Source: Acidobacteriota bacterium (GTDB lineage: Bacteria > Acidobacteriota > Polarisedimenticolia > J045). From it: a stretch of 32,747 nt of DNA. The notes below the pieces were generated by a model. That model saw nothing but the letters and a program-made list of their open reading frames with translations, was not told the DNA's origin and did not search any database. The stretch is from assembly GCA_003696075.1 (NCBI GenBank), contig RFHH01000023.1, positions 1-32,747 of the forward strand. Direction: 5' to 3'. The position numbers and the translations under genes are program-made. Of this stretch, positions 898 through 28,863 are shown in pieces; positions within the stretch are counted from its first letter, which is position 1, and each line of letters begins with the position of its first letter.

Positions 898-3527
898 GCC
901 ACGACGACACCGATCTCGACCGGACGCTGGACCGCGCGCTGGAGGAGATCCGGCTCGAGGAGCCCGATCCGCGGCGACTCGAGGCGGCCGCCGGGCGAGT
1001 GCTCGATCGCCTCCGCCGGGAGGGAGCCGCCGGCGGTGAGGCTCCGATCGATGGCTGCGACGGATTTCGATCGCTGCTCACCGACCTCGATGCCGGCCGG
1101 CTCTCGGAAGAGCGCCGGCTGCTCGTCGAGGACCACCTCAGGGAGTGCCCGCGATGCCGCCGTGCACGGCGCGCCGGCCGCGGCACCCCGCTCCCTCCGC
1201 ACCCGCGGGTCCGCTCGCGGTCCGGATGGCGGCGTCCGGGGCTCCGCATCGCCGCCGCGGCCGCGGTCGTCGCCATCGCGGCCCTCGCGGCGATCCGCCT
1301 CGGTCCTCGGCTCGGCGCCGGTGGAGGCACGGCCGGCCGGGTGACCGCCGTCGAGGGCCGACTGTTCGAAGTGGCCGGCGCCCGCCTCGTCCCGCTGGAG
1401 GCCGGTGCGGCCCTGCCCGCGGGCCGACCGATCCGGACCGCGAAGGGATCGGGCGCCCTCGTGACGCTCGGCGACGGGTCGCGCGTGGAGCTCCGGGAAC
1501 GGTCGGAGCTCGCTGTCGAACCGGGATGGACCGGTCCGACGCTCAGGCTCGGGCGCGGTGCGGTCCTCGTCGCCGCCGCTCCGCGCCACCGCGGTCACCT
1601 CACCGTGCGCACGCCCGACTGCAAGGTCGGCGTGACCGGCACGCTCTTCTCCGTCAGCCATGGCACCAAGGGCTCGCGGGTGTCGGTGGTCCAAGGGGAG
1701 GTGCGCGTGCGGCGGGCTGCCGGCACCGCCGTGCTGCACGGGGGCGACCAGCTCAGCACCAGCGAGGCGGTGCTCCCGGTGCCGCTGGCGGAGGAGGTGG
1801 CCTGGAGCCGGTTCCTGGACGAGCGGCTCGCCGCCCTGCGCGACCTGGCATCCCTGCGGCGCGAGCTGGCGGCGGTGCCTCTGCCCCCCGCGCGCCGCGG
1901 CTCGGCTCTCGCCGAGCTCCTGCCCGAGGACACCGTGGCCTATGCCGGCCTTCCCAACCTCTCCGGCACGCTCAGGGAAAGCTATGCCGTCCTTCGGAAG
2001 GAGCTGCGGTCGGCAGGGACGCTCGGCGGCTGGTGGAGCGAGGCGATCGGCCCGGAGCGGGAGCGGAAACTCGATGAACTCGTGGGGCGGCTCGCGGCCT
2101 TCGGGGAAACGCTCGGGGACGAGATCGGGATCGCGCTCGCGGCGCGGGCCGGGGGAGGTGTCGGGGGACCGCTCATTCTCGCCGAGGTGCGCGACGCCGA
2201 CGCGCTCCGGGAACGGCTCGCCGCCGAGATCGAGGCGCTGGGGGCGAGCGCCGGCGCTGACGTCCCGATCCGGCTCCTCGATTCGCCGGGAGAAGCGGGC
2301 GCCCGGAAGGGCGCGCTGGACGTCGTCGTGAGCGACGGGCTGCTCGTCGCCAGCCCGGAGCCGGACCTGCTGCGCGGGGTGCTCGCCGCGCGGAAGTCGG
2401 GCGAACGTCCCTTCCGCGATCGGCCGCTGTGGCGCAGGCTCCAGAGCTTCTACGCCGAGGGGGCGGAGTGGATCGTGGCCGTCGACGCCGGCCGGATCAT
2501 CCGGAGCGGAGCGGAGCTGGACGAAGGCGCGCGCCGAGCGCTCGCGCTGCTCGGAATCGACCGGATCGAGCACGCGGTGGCGTCGCGCCGGCACGAGGGC
2601 GGGGCGACGTTCGACCGGGTGCTCGTCACCTTCGACGCACCCCGACACGGCGTCGTCTCGTGGCTCGCGCCGCCGGCTCCGATCGGCTCGCTGCGGTTCG
2701 TCTCGCCGGAAGCGCACCTCGTCGTCGCGGCGGCGCTCGAGGATCCCGAGAGGATGCTCGATGACCTGACCGCGTGGGGCGGCGGGGAGCCGGGGCCGGG
2801 CGCGCTGGCGCGCACCCTGCTGGCAGCCTCGGGCATCGACGTCGCACGCGAGATCGCCGGTCCTCTCGGCGGCGAGTTCACGTTCGCACTCGACGGACCG
2901 CTGCTTCCGGCCCCCGCGTGGATCGCGGCGGTCGAGGTCTACGATCCCGAGACGCTGATCCGCGCGCTCGAGGCGCTCGCGGACAAGCTGGGAAGGATGG
3001 TCGAGATCGGCGACCGGCGCCTCGTCGAGTTCGAGCGAGCGGAACCCGTCCTCGGCCGGCCCGCCTTCGTCCTGAGGATCGCCGCGCCGAGGCTCGACCT
3101 CGATCTCGCCCTCACCGACGGCTACCTCCTCGTCGCGCCGACCCGTGGCGGCCTCGAGCGGGCGATCCGCCAGGAGGAGTCAGGCATCTCCCTCGCGGAC
3201 GACCCGGACTTCCTCGCGCGGCTGCCGCGCGACCGCTACGCGGACGTCTCCGCTCTCGTCTATCACGACCTGGGAAGGGCCCTCGCCTCGCTCGCCGGAA
3301 GCACCGCGCGGAGGTCCGGCCGGCCGCTCACCGGAGAGGAACGGGCGGCGCTCGACGACCTCGCCCGGGCCGCCGGCCCGGTCCTCGCCGTCGCCTATGG
3401 CTTCGAGGACCGCATCGAGATCGCGATCACGGGCAGGAGTCTGTTCGGAGCCGGGTTGGCCGACGTGCTGCCGGACCTGACCGGAGCCGGCCTCGTTCGG
3501 TGGCGCGAAGGGGGCGACGGGCGGTGA
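894..3527 (+). CDS. Membrane anti-sigma factor fused to FecR domain and a large DUF3352-like region
   Basis: The 877-residue product starts at the ATG overlapping the sigma-factor stop. Residues 1-95 look like a zinc-finger anti-sigma domain: an acidic helical start, then HLRECPRC, giving the H81-x3-C85-x2-C88 ligand set. One transmembrane helix follows at about 118-135 ([17 protein letters not shown]). Residues 149-290 match a FecR domain ([11 protein letters not shown], then [10 protein letters not shown] and VVQGEVRV). The remaining ~580 residues resemble DUF3352-type extracytoplasmic proteins, with repeated alpha/beta units containing ALADKLG- and [14 protein letters not shown]-like segments. 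I infer that the N-terminus holds the sigma factor in the cytoplasm while the FecR and large C-terminal part sense something outside the membrane. The DUF3352 assignment is from general resemblance and is the least certain part. The frame could be read further upstream, but ATG 894 fits the coupling and domain start. Confidence 0.82.
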
Positions 3528-3541
3528 GGGAACCGCGCGCG

Positions 3542-4474
3542 ATGGAGGGACCGGCCCTCGTCCTCGAGGGTCTGACGGTGCGATTCGGCCGCCGCACGAT
3601 CCTCGACCGCCTCGACGGGAGCGTCCCGGGCGGGCCGATCGGCCTTCTGGGTCCGAACGGCGCCGGCAAGACGACGCTGATCCACACCCTGCTCGGCTTC
3701 CACGAGCCGACGGCCGGGACGGCACGAGTGCTCGGGCTCGACATCCGGAACGATCGGCGCGAGGTCAAGCGGATCGTCGGCTACATGCCGGAGCGCGAAG
3801 CCTTCATCGCGGACATGACCGCCGTCTCCTTCGTGCGGCAAATGGCGGAGCTGAGCGGCCTCCCGCCGCGCCGGGCGCTGGAGCGGGCCCACGAAGCGCT
3901 CTACGCCGTTGGCCTCGGCGAGGTCCGCTACCGGAGGCTGGGGACGCTCTCGCTCGGGATGCGCCAGATGGTCAAACTGGCCCAGGCGATCGTTCACGGG
4001 CCGAAGATTCTCTTCCTCGACGAGCCGACGAACGGCCTCGACCCACCGCACCGGCGCCGCATGCTCGAGCTGATCCGTTCCATCGCCGGCACGGGGGAGG
4101 TGCACGTGGTCCTCTCCTCGCATCTGCTGCGCGATGTCGAGCAAACCTGCCGGCACGTGCTGATCTTGAAGGATGGTCGCCTCGCGGCCCTTCTCGATCT
4201 GGAGAAGGAGCGCGCGGCCGACCGCCGTTTCGTCGAGCTGGAGACGGCGGGTCGCCCGCGCGTGTTCGCCGAGGCGATCGAGCGGCTCGGGGCCGACTGC
4301 GCGCTCGCCGGAGGGGACCGGATCAAGGCGGTTCTGCCCGGCTCTGTCGGGGTGAAGGATCTGTACCGGATCGCGGCGGAGCTGGGGCTGGCGATCCGCC
4401 GGCTCAGCTTCCGGCGCGACTCGCTCGAGGACATCTTCCTGGGTGTGATGGAGGGCGACCGTGGCGGTCTATGA
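3542..4474 (+). CDS. ABC transporter ATP-binding protein (first exporter cassette)
   Basis: This 310-residue nucleotide-binding subunit belongs to the ABC-2 exporter group. It has Walker [10 protein letters not shown] at about residues 37-45, the signature LSLGMRQ in place of LSGGQ, Walker [14 protein letters not shown], and the switch histidine in LSSH. The Q-loop position reads GYMPE rather than a glutamine, a variant known in this subgroup. A C-terminal tail of about 90 residues follows the ATPase core, as in NosF/CcmA-like proteins. It should power the permease encoded next, whose start it overlaps by 14 bases. I chose ATG 3542 because AGGGA lies 9 bases upstream. An in-frame GTG at 3524 overlaps the previous stop (GTGA) and would add six residues, so translational coupling is also possible. 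The substrate cannot be read from sequence. Confidence 0.9.
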
Positions 4475-9682: not shown

Positions 9683-11311
9683 ATGAGCGTGCGACTTCTC
9701 CTGGGAGACGAGGCGGTCGCGCTGGCGGCCGTCGATGCGGGCATCGGGGGGGCCTTCTCCTACCCCGGCACCCCCGCCACCGAGATCTTCGAGACGATCG
9801 AGCAGGGTCCGGCGCGCGACGGCCGCGTCTCGGCGCGCTGGTCGGCGAACGAGAAGGTCGCCTACGAGGAGGCGCTCGGCATGTCCTACGCCGGCCGTCG
9901 CGCCCTCGTGTCGATGAAGCACGTCGGCCTGAACGTCGCCGCCGACCCGTTCGTCAACTCCGCGCTGACCGGAGTCAACGCGGGGCTGGTCCTCGCCGTC
10001 GGCGACGATCCGGGAATGCACTCGTCGCAGAACGAGCAGGACAGCCGCTTCTACGCCGAGTTCGCCCGGGTGCCGCTGTTCGAGCCGGCCACGCAGCAGG
10101 AAGCCTACGACCTGACCCGCCTCGCCTTCCGGTATTCGGAGGAGGTCGGGCTTCCGGTGATGGTGAGGCTGGTGACGAGGTTGGCCCACAGCCGATCCAC
10201 CGTGCGCCTCGACCCGGCTCCCGAACCTCCCCGCCCGCACCGCCGGCCCGATCCGTCCGATTGGACCCTGGTTCCGGCCAACGCCCGCCGCCGGTTCGCC
10301 CGTCTGGTCGAACTGCAGGCGCGGCTGCTGGAAGACTCGGAGCGGTCGCCGCACAACCGGCTGGAGCTCGCCGGCCGTCTGGGGGTGATCGCCGCCGGAG
10401 TGGGCCGCAACTACGTCAAGGAAGTCCTCGACGGCGACACGGACGTCTCGCTGCTCGAGATCGCGCGCTACCCGATCCCGGTCCGCCTCGTCCGCGAGCT
10501 CGTCGATCACTGCGACGAGATCCTCGTGGTCGAGGAGGGCTACCCCTTCATCGAGAGCCGCCTGTGCGGCCTGCTCGGGGTTCCGGGAAAGGCCATTCAC
10601 GGGAAGTTGAGCGGCCATCTCCCCGCGACCGGCGAGCTGCGTCCCGAGCACGTCGCCGCCGCACTTCGAAGGGGCGGCCCGCGGGTCGCGGTTCCCGACC
10701 TGGAGCCGGCGGTTCGCCCGCCGCAGCTCTGCCGCGGCTGCCCCCATGCGGACAGCTTCAAGGCGATCGTCGAGGCGACCAGCGGCTACGATGCCCCGAT
10801 CCTTTTCAGCGACATCGGCTGCTACACCCTCGGCGTCATGCCCCCGTACCGTGCCGTGCACGCCTGCGTCGATATGGGGGCCTCGATCGCCATGGCTCAC
10901 GGGGCGTCGCAGGCGGGCGCCTGGCCGGTCATCTGCACGATCGGCGATTCGACCTTCTCGCACTCCGGGATGACGGCGCTCCTCGGAGCGGCGCATCACG
11001 ACGCGGACATGACCGTGTTCATCCTCGACAACGCGACCGTGGCCATGACCGGGGCGCAGGAGTCGCTCACCCACGGGGAACGGCTGCTCGAGGTCCTCCG
11101 CGGACTCGGCGTGTCCGACGAGCATCTCCACGTGATCGAGCCCGTTCCCAAGCGCCACGCCGAGAACGTCGAGCTGATCCGGAAGGAGATCGAGCACCGC
11201 GGCCTCAGCGTGATCGTGCCCCGCAGGCCGTGCATCCACCTCAAGCGGCGCCATCGCGCCGGGGAGCAGGCCGCGGCGGCCGGCGCCGCTGCCGGGAGGG
11301 AGGCGCGATGA
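9683..11311 (+). CDS. iorA: Indolepyruvate ferredoxin oxidoreductase alpha subunit (IorA), without C-terminal ferredoxin domain
   Basis: The 542-residue protein is the thiamine-diphosphate subunit of a 2-oxoacid:ferredoxin oxidoreductase of the indolepyruvate type, which oxidatively decarboxylates aryl pyruvates to aryl-acetyl-CoA. The N-terminal pyrimidine-binding domain starts LLLGDEAVALAAVDAG, followed by FSYPGTPATEI and the SMKHVGLNVAADPF motif. The middle (about 225-330) is the transketolase-C-like domain. The C-terminal TPP-pyrophosphate domain contains LCRGCPHADSF (350-358), DIGCYTLG (377-384), GDSTFSHSG (421-429) and ILDNATVAMTG (447-457). Known IorA proteins normally end with a domain binding two [4Fe-4S] clusters; here the chain stops soon after RRPCIHLKRRH with an Ala/Gly-rich tail and no CxxCxxC sets. 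GAGGT lies 7 bases before ATG 9683. The stop overlaps the next start (ATGA). Substrate preference is inferred from the family only. Confidence 0.9.
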   Translation: MSVRLLLGDEAVALAAVDAGIGGAFSYPGTPATEIFETIEQGPARDGRVSARWSANEKVAYEEALGMSYAGRRALVSMKHVGLNVAADPFVNSALTGVNAGLVLAVGDDPGMHSSQNEQDSRFYAEFARVPLFEPATQQEAYDLTRLAFRYSEEVGLPVMVRLVTRLAHSRSTVRLDPAPEPPRPHRRPDPSDWTLVPANARRRFARLVELQARLLEDSERSPHNRLELAGRLGVIAAGVGRNYVKEVLDGDTDVSLLEIARYPIPVRLVRELVDHCDEILVVEEGYPFIESRLCGLLGVPGKAIHGKLSGHLPATGELRPEHVAAALRRGGPRVAVPDLEPAVRPPQLCRGCPHADSFKAIVEATSGYDAPILFSDIGCYTLGVMPPYRAVHACVDMGASIAMAHGASQAGAWPVICTIGDSTFSHSGMTALLGAAHHDADMTVFILDNATVAMTGAQESLTHGERLLEVLRGLGVSDEHLHVIEPVPKRHAENVELIRKEIEHRGLSVIVPRRPCIHLKRRHRAGEQAAAAGAAAGREAR

Positions 11312-14300
11312 AGCAGGACATCGTCCTGGCCGGGGTGGGCGGCCAGGGGATTCTCACGATCGCCCAGGCCATTTCCTCCGCTGCCGTACGGCGCGGTTTG
11401 TCGGTCAAGCAGTCGGAGGTCCACGGGATGTCTCAGCGAGGCGGCGCCGTGCAGGCGCACATCCGCCTCGCCGACGGCGCCATTCACAGCGACGTGATCC
11501 CCGCCGGGACGGCCGACCTGGTCATCGCCGTGGAGCCCCTGGAAGCGCTGCGGCACCTTCCCCACCTCCGCAACGGCGGATGCGTGGTTTCGAGCGTGAA
11601 CGCGTTCGTCAATATCGGTGACTACCCCCCGGTGGAGACGCTCCTCGAGAGGATCGCCGCGGCGCCCTACCACGTCCTCGTTGACGCGGAGCGGATCGCC
11701 CGCGCCGCCGGATCGGGCCGGGCGGCGAACATCGCGATGCTCGGCGCGGCGTCCCTGTTCATCGAGATGGATCCGCAGCAGCTCGAGGAAGCGGTGGCCG
11801 AGATGTTCGCCGCGAAAGGAGAACGGGTCGTCGAAGCCAACCTGCGGGCGTTCCGATTCGGCCGGAACGCCGCGCGGGCCTACCTCGACGGGATCCAGCG
11901 GGGAGCGCCTTCCGCGGCCGTCCGGCACTGGATCGACTCTCTCGACGCCCGCCACCTCGCGGAGCCGGAGGCGCCCGACGCTCCCGTGCTCGAGGTGGTC
12001 GCCGACAGCGGCATTTTGTCGGGCGCGGAAGAGCACGCCGTCGCCAAGACACTCGAGGACGCCTATCACGAGGGCCGACGGCAGCTCCTCGAGCACGAGG
12101 TGTACGCGATCGTCCAGCTCGTCGGAGCGATCTCGCCGCCCAAGCATCTCTTCGTGAGCACCGAGGAGATGATCTCCGAGGAAGAGCTGGCTCGGTTCCC
12201 GGGCGACCGCGTGGTCCTCAAGATCGTCTCGCCCGACATCGTCCACAAGACCGAAGCGAACGGTATCGCCTTCGTCCCGAAGGACTACGAGACGGTCTGC
12301 CGGGAAATCGATCGCCTCATTGCCCGCCACCGCGCGGGTGCGGACGTGCGCGGAGTCCTCGTGGTGGAGTACGTCGAACGCGTCCGCCCCGGTTTCGGCA
12401 ACGAACTGTTCGTCGGCATCCGCAGCACGCGCGAGTTCGGTCCGGTGATCGCCGCCGGGCTGGGCGGCATCGACACCGAGTACCTGGCCGACAAGATGAA
12501 ACCCGGCCTCGCAGTGGCGAAGGCCTGCGCCCTCGACACCGACGCCGAGCGGTTCCTCGAGCTGTTCCAGGGAACGGTGGCCTACGAGATCCTGTCGGGC
12601 CGCGCCAGAGGCCGGCGGCGTATCGTCTCTGACGGCGAGTTGCTGCGCTGCTTCCGGGCTTTCCTCGCGCTCGCCCGGCGGTTCTGCGTCGATCGGGGCG
12701 AGGAGGAACCGGACGTGGCGGAGCTGGAGGTGAACCCGTTCGCGTTCCGGCGGCAACGCCTGGTACCGCTCGACGGGCGAGGCCGTCTCGCCCCGGCCGT
12801 GCGCCGCCCGCCGGCTCGGCCGCGCGCAGCGATCGCCCGGCTTCTCGAGCCGGGGAGCATCGCGGTTCTGGGCGTTTCCTCCCGCGAAGAAGGCTTCGGC
12901 CGCATCATCCTCCGCAACGTGCAGCGTGCCGGTTTTCCCGCCGAGCGGGTGCGGGTGGTGAAGCCGGGCGTCGAGGAGATCGACGGCATCCCCGCCGTTG
13001 CGAGCCCTTCGGACCTGCCCGAGCCGGTCGACCTGCTCGTCGTCGCCGCCGGGGCCGACCGTCTTCCCGCCATCGCCGAGGAGATCGTGGATTGCGGCAA
13101 GGCCCGCTCGGTGATCCTCATCCCGGGCGGGGCCGGGGAGACATCCGGATCGGAGGAGATCGCCGAGCGCCTGGCGCGGGCCATCGCGCGGGCGCGCGAG
13201 CGGTCCGCTGACGGCCCCGTCTTCCTCGGCCCGAACAGCCTCGGCCTCATCTCCCGCCCGGGACGCTACGACACCTTCTTCATCCCTGAATCGAGGCTGG
13301 ACAAGCGGCGCGGGGCCCCGGCGCGTCCCGTGGCGCTCCTGTCGCAGAGCGGTGCGTTCATCGCCAGCCGGCTGAGCAATCTCGAGACCCTCGACCCGGC
13401 GTTCTCCGTCTCGCTGGGGAACCAGGCCGACCTGACCATCTCCGATATGCTCGCGGCGCTGGCCGGGCGGGAGGACGTGGCCACCATCGGCGTCTATGCC
13501 GAGGGGTTCAACGACCTCGACGGGCTGGACACCGTGCGCGAGATCGAGCAAGCGGTTGCGAGGGGAAAGGAGGTCGTCTTCTACAAGGCGGGGCGCACGG
13601 AGCCCGGCCGCAGCGCCGCCGCGGGGCACACCGCCTCCGTGGCCGGCGACTACGACGTCTGCCAGGCCGCGGCCGACCAGGCGGGGGCGATGGTCGCCGA
13701 CACGTTCAAGGAGTTCGAGCAGCTGCTCGAGCTTTCGGCCGCGCTGCACGACCGTCCGGTGCGCGGCAACCGCATCGCCGTGGTCACCAATGCCGGGTTC
13801 GAGGCCGTCGGCACCGCCGACGCCGTCATCGGCCAGCGTTATCGTGTGGAGCTGCCGCCGCTCGACCCCGTGGTCCGAGAACGGCTCCGCGAACTGCTGG
13901 AGGCCCACCGGCTGGGACGTCTCGTCAACGCCCGCAATCCGCTGGACCTGACACCGATGGCGGGGGAGGAGGTCTACGAGGGTGCCGTCCGGATCCTGCT
14001 CGAGTGGGATGGCGTGGACGCCGTGCTCGTCGGCATCGTCCCGCTCACCGTCACGCTGAAGGTCACGCCGGACGAGTTGGACACCCCCGGCTCGCTGCCG
14101 GAGCGGCTCGGACGCCTGCGCGCGTCCCACGACAAGCCGCTCGCCGCGGTGGTCGACTCCGGTCCGCGTTACGCCCCGCTCGTTCATCGCCTGAGAGAAG
14201 CCGGACTCCCCGTGTTCCCCTCGGCCGATCAGGCGGTGCGCTCGCTGGGCCGTTATCTCTGCCATCGCGCGGCGCGGCGGACGCCCGTGCACCCGGGCGG

Positions 14301-14316
14301 AGCCGCCGTGCGCTGA
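11308..14316 (+). CDS. Fusion: indolepyruvate oxidoreductase beta subunit (IorB) + ADP-forming acyl-CoA synthetase (ATP-grasp beta part, then CoA-binding/ligase alpha part)
   Basis: This 1002-residue protein joins two consecutive enzymes. Residues 1 to about 205 are IorB: VLAGVGGQGILTIAQ and SEVHGMSQRGGAVQAHIR are hallmark segments. Residues about 225-500 are the ATP-grasp (beta) part of an NDP-forming acyl-CoA synthetase: VVLKIVSPDIVHKTEANGI (302-320), GNELFVGIRSTREFGPVIAAGLGG (364-387) and ELEVNPFAF (472-480). Residues about 505-650 are the CoA-binding Rossmann domain (SIAVLGVSSREEGFG; FLGPNSLGLI). Residues about 672-1000 are the ligase domains, with LLSQSGAF and AGHTASVAGD, whose His774 aligns with the phosphorylated histidine of the family. 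The expected chemistry is 2-oxoacid to acyl-CoA (with IorA), then acyl-CoA + ADP + Pi to acid + CoA + ATP. The frame is open throughout and motifs from all parts are intact, arguing against a sequencing fusion. It is coupled to iorA by ATGA. Confidence 0.9.
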   Translation: MKQDIVLAGVGGQGILTIAQAISSAAVRRGLSVKQSEVHGMSQRGGAVQAHIRLADGAIHSDVIPAGTADLVIAVEPLEALRHLPHLRNGGCVVSSVNAFVNIGDYPPVETLLERIAAAPYHVLVDAERIARAAGSGRAANIAMLGAASLFIEMDPQQLEEAVAEMFAAKGERVVEANLRAFRFGRNAARAYLDGIQRGAPSAAVRHWIDSLDARHLAEPEAPDAPVLEVVADSGILSGAEEHAVAKTLEDAYHEGRRQLLEHEVYAIVQLVGAISPPKHLFVSTEEMISEEELARFPGDRVVLKIVSPDIVHKTEANGIAFVPKDYETVCREIDRLIARHRAGADVRGVLVVEYVERVRPGFGNELFVGIRSTREFGPVIAAGLGGIDTEYLADKMKPGLAVAKACALDTDAERFLELFQGTVAYEILSGRARGRRRIVSDGELLRCFRAFLALARRFCVDRGEEEPDVAELEVNPFAFRRQRLVPLDGRGRLAPAVRRPPARPRAAIARLLEPGSIAVLGVSSREEGFGRIILRNVQRAGFPAERVRVVKPGVEEIDGIPAVASPSDLPEPVDLLVVAAGADRLPAIAEEIVDCGKARSVILIPGGAGETSGSEEIAERLARAIARARERSADGPVFLGPNSLGLISRPGRYDTFFIPESRLDKRRGAPARPVALLSQSGAFIASRLSNLETLDPAFSVSLGNQADLTISDMLAALAGREDVATIGVYAEGFNDLDGLDTVREIEQAVARGKEVVFYKAGRTEPGRSAAAGHTASVAGDYDVCQAAADQAGAMVADTFKEFEQLLELSAALHDRPVRGNRIAVVTNAGFEAVGTADAVIGQRYRVELPPLDPVVRERLRELLEAHRLGRLVNARNPLDLTPMAGEEVYEGAVRILLEWDGVDAVLVGIVPLTVTLKVTPDELDTPGSLPERLGRLRASHDKPLAAVVDSGPRYAPLVHRLREAGLPVFPSADQAVRSLGRYLCHRAARRTPVHPGGAAVR

Positions 14317-14617
14317 ACACCGACCGCCCCCGGGCCGGGCCCCCGAGGGAGCCCGCGCGCGGTTCGGGGAGGGCCGGTCGGGTGCCTGCCGGAGGGAGCC
14401 TGCCCCGGGGCGGGTCGTTGCGGGCTCGGCGATCCCCGCCTCGGCCGGCCCCCCCCGAAGGGGATCGCGGCCGGTTTCCTCTTCCCCTGGCAGGGAAGGC
14501 GGTCCGCGCGCCGGGGCTACCGGCGCCGCGGCCCGCTCGGCGGCGCAGCCGCGGCCGGGAGTGGGCGTCGGGTTGGTCGGGACCGACGGTGATCGACCTG
14601 CGTTGGGCCGGTGCGGT
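14317..14617. other. Convergent intergenic region with a long-loop inverted repeat
   Basis: This 301-base gap separates the + strand fusion gene from a - strand gene. No gene is recognised. GATCCCC (14431-14437) and GGGGATC (14460-14466) form a perfect 7-base inverted repeat with a 22-base spacer, followed by a pyrimidine-rich run (TTTCCTCTTCCCC, 14475-14487). It could act as a bidirectional transcription end, but there is no clean T tract. Confidence 0.35.
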
Positions 14618-15517
14618 TCAGCTCCCATCCGCGCCGGGCGCCGCTCCCTCCGCCCCGGAGGGCGGAGGGCGGCGGCAGGCGGGCAGCCTGGTCAGCAGGT
14701 CGAGGTCGAACACGAAGGCTCGCCCGTCGGCGAAACCGCGCAGCCACGCCCGCGCGTCCTCCGCGCTCGCCGCGAACTCCGGCGGAACCGCGGGGCGCGC
14801 CGGCGTCAGCTCGGCCTCCACGAGCCGGGAACAGCCGGAGAGCCTCCGCTCCCGCTGATGGGCGATGCCCGCCGCGAGCCCGGCGGCGTAAGCGAGCTCC
14901 CCGTCCGACGTGACCGTCAGCCGCTCCAGGCGGCGGCGCGCTTGCCGCAGGCGGGCCGCCAGCAGCTCGTCGGTCCGCCGGGCCTTCCACGCTCGGTAGG
15001 CGGCGAGGGTCTTCTCGTAGTCGCGCGGCAGCCGGGGCGCGCGCCGCTCGTTGTACAGCCAGGAGCGGCGGGCCTCCGCGGGAGTGTCGTGCCGCTCCAG
15101 CACGCGTGCGATCGACGACTCGATCCGCGCGCGGGCGCGCGCACGCAGGGCGCGGCGCGGCACCCCGATCAGCAGCTCGACCCGGCACGAGCGCTCTTCG
15201 TACAGCGTGAACGGGCCGTCGCGGCGCTCGATCCGGACCGGCTCGGCGAGCGACAGCCGGACCCCCACGCGGCCGCCGGCGACGGACAGGTCGTCCACGC
15301 GCGCCAGCTCCCCGGGCGGAAACCAATAGCTGCCCTCGGCCGGCGCCGTCTCCTCTTCCACGGGGTTCGCGGTGTACCGCCCGTCGCACGAGGAGCGGAG
15401 GTCGGTCGTGACGATCACCCAGGAGCCACGCCAGCGCTCGTCGAGAGCGCGCTCGACCCCACCGGCGGGCGGCGCCGCCGCGAGTCCGAGCAGGGCGAGT
15501 GCACACGACGCGGGCAC
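14618..15517 (-). CDS. Secreted protein of unknown function
   Basis: I do not recognise this 299-residue protein. It starts at a GTG (complement of 15515-15517) with a good GGGAGG site just upstream. A plausible signal peptide covers about residues 1-20 (CALALLGLAAAPPAGG), so export is likely. The mature part has a strand-rich N-terminal half (about 30-118), with tracts such as GSWVIVTTDLRSSCDGRY and GGRVGVRLSLAEPVRIERRDGPF, then a strongly basic helical half (about 120-265), with REA/RRL-rich amphipathic stretches. Four cysteines (44, 111, 229, 281) lie in the mature part and could form disulfides. No enzyme motif stands out. It lies 93 bases downstream of the GNAT gene on the same strand and could be co-transcribed with it. 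Real-gene status rests on the start signals, signal peptide and composition. Confidence 0.62.
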   Translation of the reverse strand: MPASCALALLGLAAAPPAGGVERALDERWRGSWVIVTTDLRSSCDGRYTANPVEEETAPAEGSYWFPPGELARVDDLSVAGGRVGVRLSLAEPVRIERRDGPFTLYEERSCRVELLIGVPRRALRARARARIESSIARVLERHDTPAEARRSWLYNERRAPRLPRDYEKTLAAYRAWKARRTDELLAARLRQARRRLERLTVTSDGELAYAAGLAAGIAHQRERRLSGCSRLVEAELTPARPAVPPEFAASAEDARAWLRGFADGRAFVFDLDLLTRLPACRRPPPSGAEGAAPGADGS

Positions 15518-16543: not shown

Positions 16544-19500
16544 ATGTCCGGTCCCGTCCGCCTCGCCGTCGCCGCCGCGCTCCTCGCCTCCGTCGAAGCG
16601 CTCCCCGCGGAGATGGGGGCACCGGTGCACCACGAGCTCACCGTGCGGATCGACCCGGCGGCCCACCGCCTCGAGGTCGAGGACGAGATCAGCCTTCCGG
16701 AGCCGCTGGCGGCCTCGGGCGATCTGCGCTTCCTGCTTCATCGCGGGCTCGAGGCGGTCTCCGCCACCCCGGAATACGCCGTGGAGCGAATGGAGCCGCC
16801 GCGGTCTTTGCGGCGCTACGGCATCAACGAGGAGAGTCCCGGCGAGGCTGCGGTCCCGCTGGACGAGTACCGCCTGCGGCCGACGACCGCCGGTGCCCCT
16901 CCCGCCCGGCCGCCGATCCTCCGCTACTCGGGAGTGATCCACCACCCGATCCGTGCGGAAGGCGAGGAGTACGCGCGGAGCTTCTCCAGAACTCCGGGAC
17001 TCATCGACGAGAAAGGCGTCGTGCTCTCGGGCAGCACTTTCTGGGTGCCGCTGTTCGGCGACGCGCTGGTGAGCTTCCGGATGACCGTGGATCTGCCCGC
17101 CGGATGGGACGCGGTCAGCCAGGGCCGGAGGGAAAAGCACGAGGCAGCGGGCGGACGCCGTCGCGTCGTCTGGAATTCGCCGGAGCCGATGGACGAGATC
17201 TACCTCGTCGCCGCCCCGTTCGAGGAGTACGAGCGCCGAAACGGGAAGCTGACGGCGATGGTGTTCCTGCGCGAGAAGGATCCGAACCTGGCGGCCCGAT
17301 ATCTGGAGGCCACCGTCCAGGACATCTCGATGTACGAGAAGCTCATCGGCCCGTACCCGTACGCGAAGTTCGCGCTCGTGGAGAACTTCTGGGAGACCGG
17401 CTACGGGATGCCATCGTTCACCCTGCTCGGGCCGAAGATCATCCGCTTCCCGTTCATCCTGCAGTCCTCCTATCCGCACGAGATCCTTCACAACTGGTGG
17501 GGGAACTCGGTCTTCGTCGATTACGAGAGCGGAAACTGGTGCGAGGGCTTGACCGCCTACCTCGCCGATCACCTCTTCAAGGAGATGCAGGGGGCCGGCG
17601 AGGCCTACCGCCGCGACACGCTCGAGCGCTACCGCTCCTACGTCCGCGAAGCGCGGGACTTTCCGCTGACCGAGTTCCGCTCGCGGCACTCTTCGGCGAC
17701 CGAGGCTGTCGGCTACGGGAAGTCGCTGATGCTCTGGCACATGTTGCGGCGAAAGCTCGGCGACGCCACCTTCGTCGACGCTCTCGCGCGGCTCTACCGC
17801 GACTACCGGTTCCGCCGGGCATCGTTCGCCGACATCGAGAAGGTCTTCAGCGCCGTGAGCGGCACCGACCTCGGGCCTTTCTTCCGCCAGTGGGTGGAGA
17901 GGACCGGCGCTCCCTCGCTGGCGCTGGGACGGGTCGCGGACGAGACCCTTCCCGATGGCCGGCACCTTCTGACGGTGGAGCTGCGGCAAGTCCAACGGGA
18001 GGAACCCTTCGCGGTCGAGGTGCCGGTGGCGATCACGGTCGCGGGTGAGAGCGCGGCTCGGATCGTCTCCATCGAAATGAGCGGGCGGACCGCCACGGGC
18101 CGGTTCGAGCTGCCAGGACCGCCCGTCAGGGTCGACGTCGACCCTCAGTTCGATCTCTTCCGGCGGCTCGACCCGAGAGAGATCCCACCCACTCTTTCCC
18201 GGCTGTTCGGCGCCCCGAAAGTGGCCATCGTCGTGCCGGACGGAGACGGCGCGGTTCCTTCCGCCGCCTGGCGCCGCTTCGCCGAGGGCTGGGCGCGAGG
18301 GAACGCGCACGACGTCCGCATCGTCGGCGAGGCGGAGCTGGATCGGATTCCACGAGACCGCGCCGTCTGGATCCTGGGCGAAGAGAACCGCTGGGCCCGG
18401 GCGGTGACGGACGCGCTCGCCCCCAAGGGCGTTCGCGTCGACCGCGAGTCGGTCGATTTCGGGAGCCACCAGGCGGCCCGTCCCGGGACGAGCTTCGTCC
18501 TCGCCGCCGAGCACCCGTACGACGAGGACCTCGCCCTCGGCTGGATCGCTGCCGACAACCCGGCGGCGCTTCCGGGCCTCGCCCGCAAGCTGCCCCATTA
18601 CGGCCGGTACTCCTACCTCGCCTTCGAGGGTGACGAACCGACGAACGTGTTGAAAGGGCGGTGGGAGCCCGCCGGCTCCCCGCTGGTGCACGCGTTTGCG
18701 CCGGGCCCGCGCGCGGCGCTGCCGCAGCGGCAGCCGTTGGCCCGACCGGAGCCGGTCTTCGATGCGTCACGGATGATGGAGGACGTCCGCTGGCTCGCCT
18801 CTCCCGAACTCGAGGGCCGGTCCGCCGGAAGCGAGGGACTCCGGCGCGCCGCCGAAAGAGTGGCGCGCGTGTTCGCCGAGGCGGGGCTCGCGCCCGGCGG
18901 GGAGGACGGCTACTTCCAGATCTGGGAGGAGCCGGGTGGGCCGGAGGGACGCACGGTCACGCTCAGGAATGTCGTGGGGGTGATCCCCGGCACCCGCCCG
19001 GACTGGCGGGGCCAGTCCGTCGTCCTCGGCGCGCACCTCGATCATCTCGGACGGGGGTGGCCCGACGTCCATGCCGGGGACGAGGGGCGGATCCATCCGG
19101 GCGCCGACGACAACGCGTCCGGCGTCGCGGTGCTCCTCGAACTCGCCCGCATCCTCGGCCGTTCGCTCCATCCGCCCCGGGCGGTCGTGTTCGTGGCCTT
19201 CGACGGAGAGGAGTGGGGGCGCCGCGGATCGCGGCACTACGTCGAGACGATGCGGGACTACCCGGCCCGTGACGCGATCGCGATGATCAACCTCGACACG
19301 GTCGGCAGGCCCGATGGCGGCCGGCTGATGCTGTTCGGTACCGGCACCGCCGAAGAGTGGCCCCACATCGCGATGGGCGTCGGCTTCACCACCGGAGTGC
19401 AGGTGCGCGCCGTGCCCGACGACCCTGGCGGCAGCGATCAGATGAGCTTCGTCGAGGCGGGCGTTCCCGCAGTCCAGCTTTTCGGCAGCGCGCACGAGGA

Positions 19501-19918
19501 CTATCACCGCCCCACCGACACCCCCGACAAGGTTCGACCCGACGCTCTCGTCGACGCGGCGACCTTCGTGCGGGAGGCGGCGGTGTACCTCGCGGAGCGG
19601 ACCGAACCGCTCACCGCCGCGGGAGGGAAGCGGCCCGGCGCCGGGGGAGCGGGACGAAAGGTGAGCCTCGGCACGCTGCCCGATTTCACCGACCCCGGGC
19701 CGGGCGTTCTCGTCGTCCGCGTGATGCCGGACTCGCCCGCGGAGCGCGCCGGCCTGCGCGCCGGGGACCGGATCGTCGCCATCGATGGCCAGGCGGTCGC
19801 CGACGTCCGCGCCTACGCAGAGGTGCTGCGCGGCCACGCCCCCGGTGACACGATCCGGATCGAGATCGAGCGAGGCGGCGAGCGTCTCGAGCTCGACGCC
19901 ACCCTCGCGCCCCGCTGA
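16544..19918 (+). CDS. Secreted M1-type metallopeptidase fused to M28 aminopeptidase and PDZ domain
   Basis: This 1124-residue exported protein has two metalloprotease units. Residues 1-22 look like a signal peptide. The M1 part (about 25-455) has HEILHNWWGN with H312, E313 and H316 for zinc binding and E334 in NWCEGLTAYLADH as third ligand. The spacing is HExxH-x17-E, one less than the classic 18. An FWETGYGMPSF segment precedes it where classical members have GxMEN. A linker of about 280 residues follows. The M28 part (about 740-1020) has GAHLDHLG (H831), HPGADDNASG (D855), FDGEEWG (E889/E890), NLDTVGR (D918) and HEDYHRPTD (H988), a complete two-zinc set. A PDZ domain ends the chain (about 1050-1122; VMPDSPAERAGLRAGDRIVAIDG). 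It should trim peptides outside the cytoplasm. GGGAGG precedes ATG 16544. Domain assignment is firm; simultaneous activity of both sites is untested. Confidence 0.9.
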   Translation: MSGPVRLAVAAALLASVEALPAEMGAPVHHELTVRIDPAAHRLEVEDEISLPEPLAASGDLRFLLHRGLEAVSATPEYAVERMEPPRSLRRYGINEESPGEAAVPLDEYRLRPTTAGAPPARPPILRYSGVIHHPIRAEGEEYARSFSRTPGLIDEKGVVLSGSTFWVPLFGDALVSFRMTVDLPAGWDAVSQGRREKHEAAGGRRRVVWNSPEPMDEIYLVAAPFEEYERRNGKLTAMVFLREKDPNLAARYLEATVQDISMYEKLIGPYPYAKFALVENFWETGYGMPSFTLLGPKIIRFPFILQSSYPHEILHNWWGNSVFVDYESGNWCEGLTAYLADHLFKEMQGAGEAYRRDTLERYRSYVREARDFPLTEFRSRHSSATEAVGYGKSLMLWHMLRRKLGDATFVDALARLYRDYRFRRASFADIEKVFSAVSGTDLGPFFRQWVERTGAPSLALGRVADETLPDGRHLLTVELRQVQREEPFAVEVPVAITVAGESAARIVSIEMSGRTATGRFELPGPPVRVDVDPQFDLFRRLDPREIPPTLSRLFGAPKVAIVVPDGDGAVPSAAWRRFAEGWARGNAHDVRIVGEAELDRIPRDRAVWILGEENRWARAVTDALAPKGVRVDRESVDFGSHQAARPGTSFVLAAEHPYDEDLALGWIAADNPAALPGLARKLPHYGRYSYLAFEGDEPTNVLKGRWEPAGSPLVHAFAPGPRAALPQRQPLARPEPVFDASRMMEDVRWLASPELEGRSAGSEGLRRAAERVARVFAEAGLAPGGEDGYFQIWEEPGGPEGRTVTLRNVVGVIPGTRPDWRGQSVVLGAHLDHLGRGWPDVHAGDEGRIHPGADDNASGVAVLLELARILGRSLHPPRAVVFVAFDGEEWGRRGSRHYVETMRDYPARDAIAMINLDTVGRPDGGRLMLFGTGTAEEWPHIAMGVGFTTGVQVRAVPDDPGGSDQMSFVEAGVPAVQLFGSAHEDYHRPTDTPDKVRPDALVDAATFVREAAVYLAERTEPLTAAGGKRPGAGGAGRKVSLGTLPDFTDPGPGVLVVRVMPDSPAERAGLRAGDRIVAIDGQAVADVRAYAEVLRGHAPGDTIRIEIERGGERLELDATLAPR

Positions 19919-20224: not shown

Positions 20225-22906
20225 TCAGCGCACGACGGCCACGGCGAACCGATCGGGATCGATGTACGCCCTCGCTGCCCGGAGCACCTGCTCGGGCGTC
20301 ACGCGGCGGATCGCCTCGAGGAGTTCGGGATCGCCTCCGGTGGGCTCTCCGTAGAGCAGCCCGAGAGCGTCGTAGTACGCCTGGTTGATGCTCGTCAGCC
20401 TCCGCATGAAGATCCTTCCGCGACGCGCGGCGACCACCCGCTCGAGCTCCTCCACCGGAGGCGGCTCCTCGCGGAGTTCGCGGAGGATCCGGAAGATCTC
20501 CTTCTCCGCGTGCTCGAGGTTCGTCGCGGCGGTTCCCATCGCGATCTGGAGCAGCCGGCGTCCGGCCCCGAGCGGCGTGAGACCGGCCCCGATCGAGTAA
20601 GCGAGCCCCTGGGTTTCGCGGAGATCCATCTGGAGCCTCCCGGACAGGACGAGAACCGCGACCTCCAACGCGGGCAGATCCTTCTCCGGCACGTCCACGA
20701 TGGTCCCCACCCGCAGCGAACTCTGGCGCTTGCCCAGGGTGACCTCGCGGCGCGAACCGGCGGCGGTGGGCGCCGGCGGCGGGACGAGCGCCGTGGGCCG
20801 GGCGGGCTCGGCCGCCGGCGCCGGTGCTCGGGCGCCCCCCGTGCCGCGGCCGCCGAACAAGCGGGCGATGCGCCGCTCGATCTCGGACGGATCCACCCCG
20901 CCGCGCACGGCGAGGATCAGGTTGTCGGGCGCGAACAACGAAGAGTGCAGCGCGACCACCTCGTTTCGCGTGAGGCCGTCGAAGGAGCCGGGCTCTCCCG
21001 CGACCGGTCTGGAGAGCGGGTGTCCGGGCGCCAGCAGCTCGAGCAGGATCCGGCGGGACACTGCCGAAGGCGACTCGGCGGCGCGCCGCGCGCGATCCGC
21101 CATCCGCTCCGCCTCGCGCGTGACATCCTCCGCGGGGAAGAGCGGTTGCTGGATCAGCTCGGCGAGCAGGCGCAGGGCCTCCGGGGCCCGCTCGGCCCGC
21201 GACTCCAGCCGCACGAAGGAGAAATCGGGAGAGCTCTGGTAGTCGTCGAAGGGAATCCGCGGATCGTCGCGGAGCTTGAGCTGGGCACCCGCGAGGTCGA
21301 GTGCCCGGTCGAGTTCGAGCGCGTCGAGGCTCGCGGTTCCCGCTCGAAGCAGACCGTGCAGCAGCTCGGCCAGGCCGGGGCGTCCGGGCGGCTCGAGCGC
21401 CGACCGGTTGCGCGCCAGCAAGTGGACCGCGAAGACCGCCGAGTCGGGGTTCGGGCGGATCGATACGGTCAACCCGTTGGGAAGGACGAGGGTCCGCGGC
21501 CCGGCCTCGGGCGGGGCCGGCCACTCGGGCGCCGGCACAGCGAACTCCTCCACCGTTCCCGGTTCCTCGCCTGGCCCGGAGACGACCGCCAGCGCCTCCC
21601 GCCTGCCGAGGTACCGCCGGGCCACCGCGGCGATCTCCTCCGGGGTGACGGCCGCGAGCCGGGCCGCGGAGGCCTCGAGATCCGCGGCGCTCGCGTGGAG
21701 CAGCGCGGGGGCGCTGAACATCGCGTAGTAGTGCACCTGCTCGTCGAGAGTGGCCCGTGTCGTCAGCCGGCTCTCGCGCAGGGCGCGGAGCGACTCCAGG
21801 TCGAGGAGCCCGGGCGCCGCCGCCTCCGCCAGTGCCCGCCGCGCGCGCCGGATCACCTCCGCCGCCGGCACGCGCCCGGTGAGCGTCGCGTCGAGTTCGA
21901 GCACGCCGCGCCCGCCCACGGTGGAGTACGACAGCGCGGCGTCGAACGCCGCGGCAGGATCGCTCCGCACGAGATTCCGGACGAGCGGAGACCCCTCCCC
22001 GCTTCCAGCGAGGCGGACGAGGAGATCGAACGCCTCGGCATCGGGATCGCCCGCGTCCGGCGCAGGAAACGCCGCGCGCAGGTAGGTGCGCCCGGCCTCG
22101 ATCTTCTCGTGGACGATCCGTGCCGGATCGGTGAGCGCGAGGGTGGGCCGGGGGACGCCGCTCTCCGCCTCCCCCGCGCCGCCGGGGACACCGAAGCGCT
22201 CCCGGATGCGCGCGAGCGCCTCGTCTGGCTCGAACTCTCCGGCGAGGAAAAGGACCATGTTCCCGGGACGGTACCGGCGATGGTAGTAGTCGAGAACGGC
22301 ATCCCGCGCGAGAGCGGCGATCGACTCGGCCGTTCCCAGCACCGGCCGGGCGTAGGGCGACCCGGCGTGCAGCGCCCGGGTGAAGGCCAGATCGGCCTCG
22401 TGGGCGGGGTTGCTGGCGTCCCGGCGCATCTCCTCGAGGACGATCCCTTTTTCCTTGTCGAACTTGTCCTCCGGGAGAGTGGAGTGGAAGAGCATGTCGG
22501 CCTGGATCTCGAGCGCGCGGTCGAGCGATTCGCTGGGCGCGAGCATCAGGAACAGCGTGTGATCGGCGCGGGTGGTGGCGTTGTTGTACGCGCCGATGCG
22601 CTCCACGTCGGCATAGAGCTGCTCCTGGGTCCGGTTCCGGGTGCCGTTGAACAGGAGGTGCTCGAGGAAGTGCGAGGCCCCGGACATGCCCTCCGGCTCC
22701 CACGCCACCCCCGATTTCACCAGCACCGCGGAGCAAACGACCGGGTTGCCGCGAACCTGCCGCATGACGACGCGCAGCCCGTTCGGCAGCACCGTCTCGG
22801 CGAACCCCGACGCCGCGGGCGCTTCTCCCGGCGCCAGCAACAGCGACGCCAGCCCCGCCGCGAGAGCCACCGTCTGACCGACCGACCGCCGTCCGTTCGT
22901 CGCCAT
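20225..22906 (-). CDS. Secreted M16-family zinc peptidase, two-half form
   Basis: The 893-residue product has a signal peptide (about 1-32, ending APAASG) and two tandem M16 halves. The first half carries the inverted zinc motif SHFLEHLLFNGT, with H79-x2-E82-H83, and the distal glutamate in KEKGIVLEEMRRD (E159), 76 residues after H83, as in active M16 peptidases. The typical R/Y substrate region appears in GLAYSIGAGLTPLG within the second half (around residue 770). The second half starts near RTLVLPNGLTVSI (about 455) but has LAELLHGLLRAGT where the zinc motif would be, so it is the inactive partner lobe. This single-chain build matches pitrilysin/PqqL-like enzymes. It should degrade peptides in the periplasm or outside. 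ATG 22906 is preceded by GGAGGAG. It is transcribed toward the M1/M28 gene and away from the cytochrome gene. Confidence 0.92.
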   Translation of the reverse strand: MATNGRRSVGQTVALAAGLASLLLAPGEAPAASGFAETVLPNGLRVVMRQVRGNPVVCSAVLVKSGVAWEPEGMSGASHFLEHLLFNGTRNRTQEQLYADVERIGAYNNATTRADHTLFLMLAPSESLDRALEIQADMLFHSTLPEDKFDKEKGIVLEEMRRDASNPAHEADLAFTRALHAGSPYARPVLGTAESIAALARDAVLDYYHRRYRPGNMVLFLAGEFEPDEALARIRERFGVPGGAGEAESGVPRPTLALTDPARIVHEKIEAGRTYLRAAFPAPDAGDPDAEAFDLLVRLAGSGEGSPLVRNLVRSDPAAAFDAALSYSTVGGRGVLELDATLTGRVPAAEVIRRARRALAEAAAPGLLDLESLRALRESRLTTRATLDEQVHYYAMFSAPALLHASAADLEASAARLAAVTPEEIAAVARRYLGRREALAVVSGPGEEPGTVEEFAVPAPEWPAPPEAGPRTLVLPNGLTVSIRPNPDSAVFAVHLLARNRSALEPPGRPGLAELLHGLLRAGTASLDALELDRALDLAGAQLKLRDDPRIPFDDYQSSPDFSFVRLESRAERAPEALRLLAELIQQPLFPAEDVTREAERMADRARRAAESPSAVSRRILLELLAPGHPLSRPVAGEPGSFDGLTRNEVVALHSSLFAPDNLILAVRGGVDPSEIERRIARLFGGRGTGGARAPAPAAEPARPTALVPPPAPTAAGSRREVTLGKRQSSLRVGTIVDVPEKDLPALEVAVLVLSGRLQMDLRETQGLAYSIGAGLTPLGAGRRLLQIAMGTAATNLEHAEKEIFRILRELREEPPPVEELERVVAARRGRIFMRRLTSINQAYYDALGLLYGEPTGGDPELLEAIRRVTPEQVLRAARAYIDPDRFAVAVVR

Positions 22907-23070: not shown

Positions 23071-24483
23071 ATGACCGATCGAGCGATCCGTCTCGCCGCG
23101 GCGCTCGCGGCGCTCGGCCTGGGTGTCGCGCCGGCCGCCGGCGGCGAAGGTTCGGTGCCTTACGATCAGTTCGACCCGGACACCGCGTGTGCCGAGTGCC
23201 ATACCGACATCGCCGGCCAGTACCGTCAGGCGATGATGTCCCAGGCCTTCGTCCATCCGTGGGACGAAATCGAGTATTTCGAGCTGGCGCTGCCCCACGC
23301 CCGGAAGAACCCGCAGGTCGCAGCGATCGAGGCCGGGTGCAACGGTTGTCACGCTCCGCTCGCCTTCCTCGCCGGAGACATCCCCCCGGCGCGCCCGTCC
23401 GCCGGCACGCGCGCCAACGAAGGCGTGTCTTGCGACCTGTGCCATTCGATCACCGGGTTCGAGGGTGAGCTGCCGTTCAATTTCAACTACACCCTCGCTC
23501 CGGGTGATGTGGAGCAGGGGGTTCGGGAGGACTCGGAGAGCATGGGGCACGAGATCGCCCGCAATCCCTTCCTCCAAACGGCCGAGTTCTGCGGGATTTG
23601 CCACAACGAGAAGGACCCGTACGGCCAATGGGTCAAAGCGACGCACCTCGAATGGCGGGAGAGCCCGCAGGCGCGCGCCGGCATCGTCTGCCAGGACTGC
23701 CACATGCCGCCGGCCGCGGGGAGCAGCGCGCCGGCCGCCGGCGGTCCCGAGCGTCCCGACGTCCGGCAGCACCTCTTCCACGGAGCGCACGATCCGGGCA
23801 AGCTGAAGGGGGCGATCGAAGTGCGGATCCACCCCCGGTCCACGAGGGCCAAGCCGGGGGACACGGTGGAGCTGCAGGCGACGGTCGTGAACGCCAAGGC
23901 GGGCCACATGATTCCGACGGGCTCGGCCGAGGAACGGGTGGTCTGGCTGCACGTCGAGGCGGAAGACGCCTACGGCCGGCGCTACCACCTCCCTGTGCAG
24001 CCCAAGGGGTTCGCCGGCGAGGAGCTGACGATCGCCTCCCGGAAGGCGCTGGCCTACCAGGACATCGGTGAGATCCGCGGCGTCGCCGGGTTTCGGGGAC
24101 TTCCCCGGGACGGCGACGTGCCGGACGGCGACCGGATCTTCCGGCTCCCCTACCTCGACCCCAAAGGGCGGATGACGGTGGCCCAGTGGCACACCGCCAG
24201 CTTCGGGCCCGACTACCGGCTCGCGCCGCTTCAGGCGCGGAACGAGACCTTCGTCTGGACGGTGCCGGAGGACGTGCCTCCGGGGAAGGTGACCGTGACC
24301 GCCACCGTGTGGTACTCGCGCCTCGTGAGCTCCGTGGCGCGCTATCTCGGCGTGCCGCCGGAGGAGTCCCGGCCGCTGGCCATCGCCTCCCATACGACCG
24401 AGATCACCATCGAGCCTCCCGCGGCGGGGGCCGAGGCCGAGCGGGCCGGCGCCCGGGTCAAGGCTCGAGGTGGACCGTCTTGA
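23071..24483 (+). CDS. Exported pentaheme c-type cytochrome
   Basis: The 470-residue protein has a signal peptide (about 1-25) and five CxxCH heme-attachment motifs, CAECH (40-44), CNGCH (90-94), CDLCH (121-125), CGICH (174-178) and CQDCH (207-211). The first 215 residues therefore form a periplasmic multiheme domain of the cytochrome c554 / NrfA-like superfamily. MSQAFVHPWDE and HLEWRESPQA, next to the heme sites, supply histidines that could be distal ligands. The remaining ~250 residues lack hemes and look strand-rich, with an AKPGDTVELQATVVNAKAGH segment resembling an immunoglobulin-like fold and a conserved-looking GHMIPTG. It probably moves electrons in respiration or detoxification; electron donor, acceptor and any catalytic activity cannot be assigned. 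GGGGAGG precedes ATG 23071. Its last 26 bases overlap the end of the opposite dehydrogenase gene. Confidence 0.85.
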   Translation: MTDRAIRLAAALAALGLGVAPAAGGEGSVPYDQFDPDTACAECHTDIAGQYRQAMMSQAFVHPWDEIEYFELALPHARKNPQVAAIEAGCNGCHAPLAFLAGDIPPARPSAGTRANEGVSCDLCHSITGFEGELPFNFNYTLAPGDVEQGVREDSESMGHEIARNPFLQTAEFCGICHNEKDPYGQWVKATHLEWRESPQARAGIVCQDCHMPPAAGSSAPAAGGPERPDVRQHLFHGAHDPGKLKGAIEVRIHPRSTRAKPGDTVELQATVVNAKAGHMIPTGSAEERVVWLHVEAEDAYGRRYHLPVQPKGFAGEELTIASRKALAYQDIGEIRGVAGFRGLPRDGDVPDGDRIFRLPYLDPKGRMTVAQWHTASFGPDYRLAPLQARNETFVWTVPEDVPPGKVTVTATVWYSRLVSSVARYLGVPPEESRPLAIASHTTEITIEPPAAGAEAERAGARVKARGGPS

Positions 24484-25822: not shown

Positions 25823-25848
25823 GGGGCTTCTCCTTTTCCATCGCGGCG

Positions 25849-25854
25849 ATTATC
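25849..25854 (-). promoter_or_regulatory. -10 element for the aldehyde dehydrogenase gene
   Basis: On the minus strand GATAAT (five of six consensus matches) lies 26 bases upstream of the start codon in an otherwise GC-rich 119-base divergent gap. This gives a leader of roughly 20 bases. The -35 region is not recognisable. Confidence 0.4.
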
Positions 25855-25897
25855 GGCCAAACGGGGCCCATGTGCGCTCCGGCCGCCGGGCATGCGG

Positions 25898-25903
25898 TAG
25901 ACT
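25898..25903 (+). promoter_or_regulatory. Possible -10 element for the amidase operon
   Basis: TAGACT within GGTAGACT lies 38 bases before the amidase start, in the same octamer context as the M16 promoter candidate. It shares the 119-base divergent gap with the dehydrogenase promoter. Confidence 0.35.
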
Positions 25904-25941
25904 CCGCAGCGGGCGCCGGGACACCCGGCGGGGAGCAGAGG

Positions 25942-28766: not shown

Positions 28767-28799
28767 GCCGCCCCTGCGCGATCCCCGCCGCACCCAGCG

Positions 28800-28808
28800 T
28801 GGCATAAT
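28800..28808 (+). promoter_or_regulatory. Extended -10 promoter for the tricorn-like gene
   Basis: TGGCATAAT gives a TG extension plus CATAAT, five of six matches to the -10 consensus, in a 97-base gap between genes. The start codon lies 55 bases downstream. No -35 is visible, as is common for extended -10 promoters. Confidence 0.45.
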
Positions 28809-28863
28809 CCCGGCTCCGCACCGCGCCCCGGGGGCGGCGGAGGCGGGTCCCGGGAGGCCGCTC

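Follow-up and report, generated by a model that had tools for sequence, protein, structure and literature searches.

A single gene of an Acidobacteriota bacterium, iorB-acd, encodes a polypeptide in which an IorB module, the partner of the 2-oxoacid oxidoreductase subunit IorA, is continuous with a complete ADP-forming acyl-CoA synthetase (ACD). The gene lies directly behind iorA in the 32,747-nucleotide stretch of contig DNA that we analyzed, here called the window. We propose that the two genes specify a 2-oxoacid:acceptor oxidoreductase with a built-in ADP-forming acyl-CoA synthetase that would draw ATP from amino-acid oxidation, and we put the probability of this reading at roughly two in three.

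Architecture of the fused polypeptide

The iorB-acd frame stays open for 1002 codons, and its four Pfam domains lie in that one frame, each above its gathering threshold (Table 1). The original prediction of a single 1002-residue frame joining IorB to a full ACD is thus borne out. Against the equivalog model NF005324, the IorB part scores 257.1 bits, above the cut-off of 222. The three domains that follow, ATP-grasp_5, CoA_binding_2, and Succ_CoA_lig, make up the complete domain set of the ACD superfamily, with the ATP-grasp domain ahead of the CoA-binding/ligase part, i.e., in the beta-alpha order. Matches of the synthetase part are broad, and all fall below the equivalog cut-offs of characterised acyl-CoA synthetases. 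A search with the phenylacetate-CoA ligase model, TIGR02155, gave sub-cut-off matches only. No GNAT or other acetyltransferase domain is found among the Pfam matches, which sets the chain apart from PatZ-type acyltransferases.

Table 1. Features of the window, with the evidence for each.
Feature	Position	Strand	Evidence or remarks
iorA, large subunit, TPP-binding, PorA/PorB-like	9683..11311	+	Pfam POR_N, TPP_enzyme_C
ATGA overlap, iorA stop / iorB-acd start	11308..11311	+	GGGAGGGAGG just upstream
iorB-acd fusion gene, 1002 aa	11308..14316	+	Open frame, Pfam, 34 other fused ORFs aligned
IorB/POR gamma-like module, residues 1-192	11308..11883	+	Pfam POR 11-186, NF005324 1-191
Linker, residues 193-243	11884..12036	+	Helical, then disordered 222-234; low pLDDT
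ATP-grasp_5 module, ACD beta-like, residues 252-491	12061..12780	+	Pfam; H313, ELEVNP
CoA_binding_2 domain, residues 517-630	12856..13197	+	Pfam
Succ_CoA_lig flavodoxin-like domain, residues 674-808	13327..13731	+	Pfam; E732, swinging-loop phospho-His H774
Peptidase-rich surroundings: M28+PDZ, M16, amidase, tricorn-like S41	16544-19918, 20225-22906, 25717-27747, 28612-32109		
Predicted multihaem cytochrome c	23071-24483		c7/c554/NapC-like matches

Conservation is lower in the linker, the alignment of which has almost no gaps and in which the frame is kept in all 35 complete fused proteins, i.e., the window's and 34 others. The linker takes in residues 205-230, the segment where a stop or frameshift had been considered a possible flaw in the prediction. 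A search for repeats in the linker found none. Its start resembles the 60-70 residue C-terminal extension of unfused Acidobacteriota IorB proteins. On the opposite strand, an antisense ORF of 1210 aa (10996-14628, minus strand) overlaps the fusion; such ORFs are also present opposite homologues and are expected as shadow frames in DNA of 71% GC.

A two-histidine relay with a swinging loop is established for ADP-forming synthetases (PMC11494057), and both histidines are found in the fusion. H774, which had been named as the phospho-histidine, aligns with the phospho-His of solved ACDs (H254 of ckcACD1 alpha), and H313 aligns with the ATP-grasp His. In the 35 fused proteins, which come from at least four phyla, these two residues never vary, and neither do E732, E474, N476, and P477 (35/35). 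The ATP-grasp module had been described as intact, and the catalytic residues checked there agree. In the IorB part, the residues H39-G40..Q43-R44-G45-G46 are also invariant in all 35.

In the AlphaFold2 model, both halves are predicted with confidence (mean pLDDT 87.7). Low values occur in the linker (222-225 and 229-234), at IorB residues 41-45, and at the C-terminus, and the H774 loop is mildly low, with pLDDT down to 57 around residues 771-780. How IorB and ACD sit relative to each other is not to be taken from the model, the pTM of which is 0.75. With the ACD half as query, Foldseek matched PDB entry 9y43 (TM 0.87 on target, E 4e-44) and ckcACD1, with a fold match to 4xym; the PatZ entries 9isq and 9it0 are also among the structural matches.

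The partner subunit and the electron path

The iorA ORF opens at 9239, and homology begins at M149. The upstream gene carries the POR_N and TPP_enzyme_C domains expected of the adjacent IorA in an indolepyruvate oxidoreductase (IOR) holoenzyme. Given the ATGA overlap and the GGGAGGGAGG upstream of it, iorA and iorB-acd are likely to be translationally coupled.

IorA scores 499.8 bits against TIGR03336, the model of the IOR alpha subunit, versus a cut-off of 650.9 bits, and the match stops at position 540 of 595. The C-terminal 2x[4Fe-4S] ferredoxin domain that marks the archaeal-type alpha subunit is missing from the protein, and the CxxCxxCxxxC motif is absent from all 49 IorAs examined, fused or not. 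Lack of the ferredoxin domain is common to the IorAs of fused loci and of unfused operons (window, L022-L062, L052-L097). Since the unfused operons share it, the loss predates the fusion.

Four cysteines are invariant in 45/45 IorAs: residues 498, 501, 528, and 665 of the ORF, or 350, 353, 380, and 517 counted from M149. Their pattern is compatible with a proximal [4Fe-4S] cluster near the TPP; we take these residues to be the cluster ligands from what is generally known of the OFOR family. A sequence search of the PDB with IorA gave a match confined to the N-terminal part. With the ferredoxin domain absent and the proximal cluster kept, electrons would pass directly to an external carrier.

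Distribution and origin of the fusion

GTDB species genomes were scanned and loci were classified by ORF content; the counts are lower bounds. The original prediction had called for homologous fusions in other genomes, and these were found in both related and unrelated organisms. At least 33 named genomes carry the fusion, at least 32 of them in one open frame; the other, L055, ends at a contig end. In addition, two relatives of the window's genome carry it, at 72 and 68% identity. The matches listed are mostly from Planctomycetota, mainly Phycisphaerae. Others belong to Myxococcota by NCBI rank (L022, L027, L035), to an uncultured delta proteobacterium (L023), and to Armatimonadota (L044, L045, L048, L059). 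The fusion of L031, labelled 'Cyanobacteria bacterium CYA', is nested among Phycisphaerales inside a planctomycete clade, and this genome is probably mislabelled or a mixed bin. In a separate sample, 20 of the 298 genomes in the class of one Phycisphaerales carrier (Phycisphaerae) have a match that begins at residue 1-3 and extends to residue 987 or farther, all in one open frame. Presence is patchy in the class of the window itself, at 3/41 genomes only. Each of the named carriers listed is a metagenome-assembled genome.

In every listed fused locus with enough sequence, iorA is directly upstream; no other neighbour is widely conserved across these loci, and the peptidase genes of the window are no exception. 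L032 has, about 5 kb downstream, a pyruvate:ferredoxin oxidoreductase-like ORF (12223-15219), and similar ORFs are found near L030 and L040.

Quick maximum-likelihood trees were built separately for IorA, IorB, and ACD. The fused IorBs form one clade (36 rows, SH-aLRT 98), as do the fused IorAs (32 rows, SH-aLRT 99). The fused ACDs also form one clade (39 rows), which includes three 'unfused' members and L051. The three, L049, L050, and L061, were rejected as true unfused ACDs: their sequences begin at a contig edge, that of L050 inside the linker. L051 (7776-10364) encodes an ACD alone, with linker residues still present but no IorB and no iorA upstream, and probably reflects secondary fission or loss of IorB. 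Unfused ACDs of Phycisphaerae (L056, L060, L063) branch next to the fused ACD clade, and relatives farther off are encoded in three-gene iorA-iorB-acd operons, among others in Acidobacteriota and CSSED10-310.

One fused clade in each of the IorA and IorB trees points to one origin of the fusion, apparently followed by horizontal transfer of the two-gene unit. The simplest history would run from an operon, through one fusion event, probably in Phycisphaerae, to transfer into Myxococcota, Armatimonadota, and some Acidobacteriota, a direction that we infer. A candidate for a second, independent fusion, L101, was rejected, as an in-frame TGA separates its iorB and acd. At this locus (1405-4452) the two genes share a frame with that single TGA between them, which pictures a possible route to fusion. 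Another kind of joining is seen in Desulfovibrionales and Desulfobacterales (L068, L075, L077, L081), where IorA and IorB form a single chain of about 850 aa and acd follows directly.

Function, alternatives, and known systems

We suggest that the products of iorA and iorB-acd form one two-step enzyme. IorA and the IorB module would convert a 2-oxoacid, probably an arylpyruvate, and CoA to acyl-CoA by oxidative decarboxylation, and the electrons would exit via the single proximal [4Fe-4S] cluster to the external carrier. The C-terminal ACD would then convert acyl-CoA, ADP, and Pi to the free acid, CoA, and ATP, acting through H774 and H313. The fusion would set a 1:1 stoichiometry and proximity of the two activities and would thereby tie thioester release to substrate-level ATP formation.

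The physical coupling claimed in the original prediction stands, as it follows from the fusion itself, whereas the ATP-forming direction, the substrate, and channelling are parts of the claim that we infer. As both TIGR03336 and the ACD models fall short of their equivalog cut-offs, substrates are not transferable from characterised members. In favor of the coupled reading are the domain matches and invariant residues, the upstream iorA, the relatives in iorA-iorB-acd operons, the fold matches of the ACD half, and the single fused clades of IorA and IorB. The host genome adds that no acetate kinase was found in it, that a search with the fusion protein or its ACD returned the fusion itself as sole match, and that peptidases and an amidase lie in the window. 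Assignment of the Pyrococcus furiosus synthetase ACS2 to the IOR route (PMC3942289) points the same way. Counted on the other side are the lack of a detected prephenate dehydratase in the host, which makes an assimilatory role possible, the nonconserved peptidase neighbours, and the patchy presence in the window's class. The host genome also has five POR-domain loci above cut-off, and the window also encodes an aldehyde dehydrogenase. The picture of a strict anaerobic fermenter like Pyrococcus does not transfer directly: the host has two haem-copper oxidase genes, and its IorA is without the ferredoxin domain.

That assimilatory role would reverse the pathway. The ACD would spend ATP to activate scavenged arylacetate or another acid, and IorAB would reductively carboxylate the acyl-CoA to a 2-oxoacid for amino acids. 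Prephenate dehydratase (PF00800) was not detected in the 98.6% complete host genome, in which chorismate synthase is present, and 14/14 control genomes have one. Moreover, in Methanococcus maripaludis IOR has been linked to the making of aromatic amino acids from aryl acids (PMC3462420), and ADP-forming synthetases also run in the acid-activating direction (PMC11494057). We nevertheless consider reversal unlikely: reductive carboxylation needs a low-potential donor, whereas the host has haem-copper oxidases, the surroundings of the gene are peptidase-rich, and the dehydratase result fits a peptide-feeding Phe auxotroph equally well. Alternatively, the enzyme may be coupled as proposed but act on branched-chain or other 2-oxoacids, 'Ior' being a family label only. 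The shortfall of IorA against TIGR03336 and the broad, overlapping specificities of ACD isoenzymes (PMC3942289) speak for non-aromatic substrates, which we think quite improbable given that IorB exceeds the IOR beta equivalog cut-off and that PorA- and PorB-like parts in one IorA chain are the IOR type described in PMC13285125.

There is very little chance that the ACD half is inactive or serves a regulatory purpose, e.g., as a relative of the protein acyltransferase PatZ. ACD-like modules do exist in PatZ, as the matches to 9isq and 9it0 illustrate, but Pfam found no GNAT domain here, and the invariance of both histidines, E732, and the checked ATP-grasp residues argues for an active enzyme. 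The chance that a sequencing, assembly, or frameshift artefact joined two genes is negligible. Unfused iorB and acd often lie side by side, and those of L101 are one TGA short of a common chain, yet the frame runs open through the conserved linker in homologous fusions from independent assemblies of several phyla. The coupled, ATP-forming enzyme is thus the reading that we prefer. A stronger form of it is doubtful, though worth stating: acyl-CoA would be handed straight from the TPP site to the ACD site with none released free, making amino-acid oxidation obligately ATP-coupled, in a single-origin, horizontally spread enzyme that lacks the ferredoxin domain and has at least one carrier with haem-copper oxidases.

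A close precedent is archaeal. P. furiosus ACS2 uses the aryl-acetyl-CoA made by IOR (PMC3942289), and the same two families would here take a 2-oxoacid through acyl-CoA to acid and ATP. In P. furiosus, IorB, ACS alpha, and ACS beta are separate proteins, whereas in the window IorB, ATP-grasp, and CoA-binding/ligase parts form one chain; also, the archaeal IOR has the C-terminal ferredoxin domain that the window's IorA lacks. Among bacteria, the unfused operons (L052, L053, L064, L069, L093, L097; Acidobacteriota, CSSED10-310, and others) keep iorA, iorB, and acd in the same order and have an IorA without the ferredoxin domain and, in Acidobacteriota, the linker-like IorB extension. They differ in that iorB and acd are separate ORFs, with ACDs about 41-48% identical to the window's. 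In Bilophila, Mailhella, and Desulfobacterales, i.e., the loci with single-chain IorA-IorB, the ACD that accompanies IOR falls in the same broader clade, but acd is separate and IorAB is only distantly similar. The closest solved fold, 9y43, is the ADP-forming 3-hydroxypropionate--CoA ligase of Nitrosopumilus maritimus, a single-chain ACD with an N-terminal ATP-grasp. It has no OFOR module, is about 23% identical, and acts on a carbon-fixation substrate.

We found no description of the fusion in the open-access literature searched, in agreement with the original remark that no described IorB-ACD fusion was known. Proximity of the genes themselves had already been published: according to a 2026 study of Peptostreptococcales, including difficile, kinases or ADP-forming ligases (PF13607) are often encoded close to IOR/VOR genes, and some of the associated kinases and a ligase are active on arylacetates (PMC13285125). 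Sections 2.7 and 2.8 of that study describe neighbouring genes and fusions of OFOR subunits, with no OFOR-ligase fusion, whereas the window has a covalent one. A survey of archaeal fusions reports PorA-PorB, KorA-KorC, and KorB-KorC along with ACD domain order, and a term search of it brought up no IOR-ACD fusion (PMC11237513). That the named carriers are all metagenome-assembled may explain the silence of the literature. To summarize, neither the parts nor the pathway is novel; what is new, within the open-access literature searched, is their covalent coupling.

Until now, OFOR-family oxidoreductases and the enzymes that draw on their thioesters have been regarded as separate proteins, connected only through diffusing acyl-CoA. 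With a fusion that is natural and conserved, coupling and channelling can be put to a direct test on just two purified polypeptides, and the fusion provides a functional link for the ACD family inside it. It would also mark a module for gaining energy from amino acids that is widespread in uncultured Planctomycetota, Acidobacteriota, Myxococcota, and Armatimonadota.
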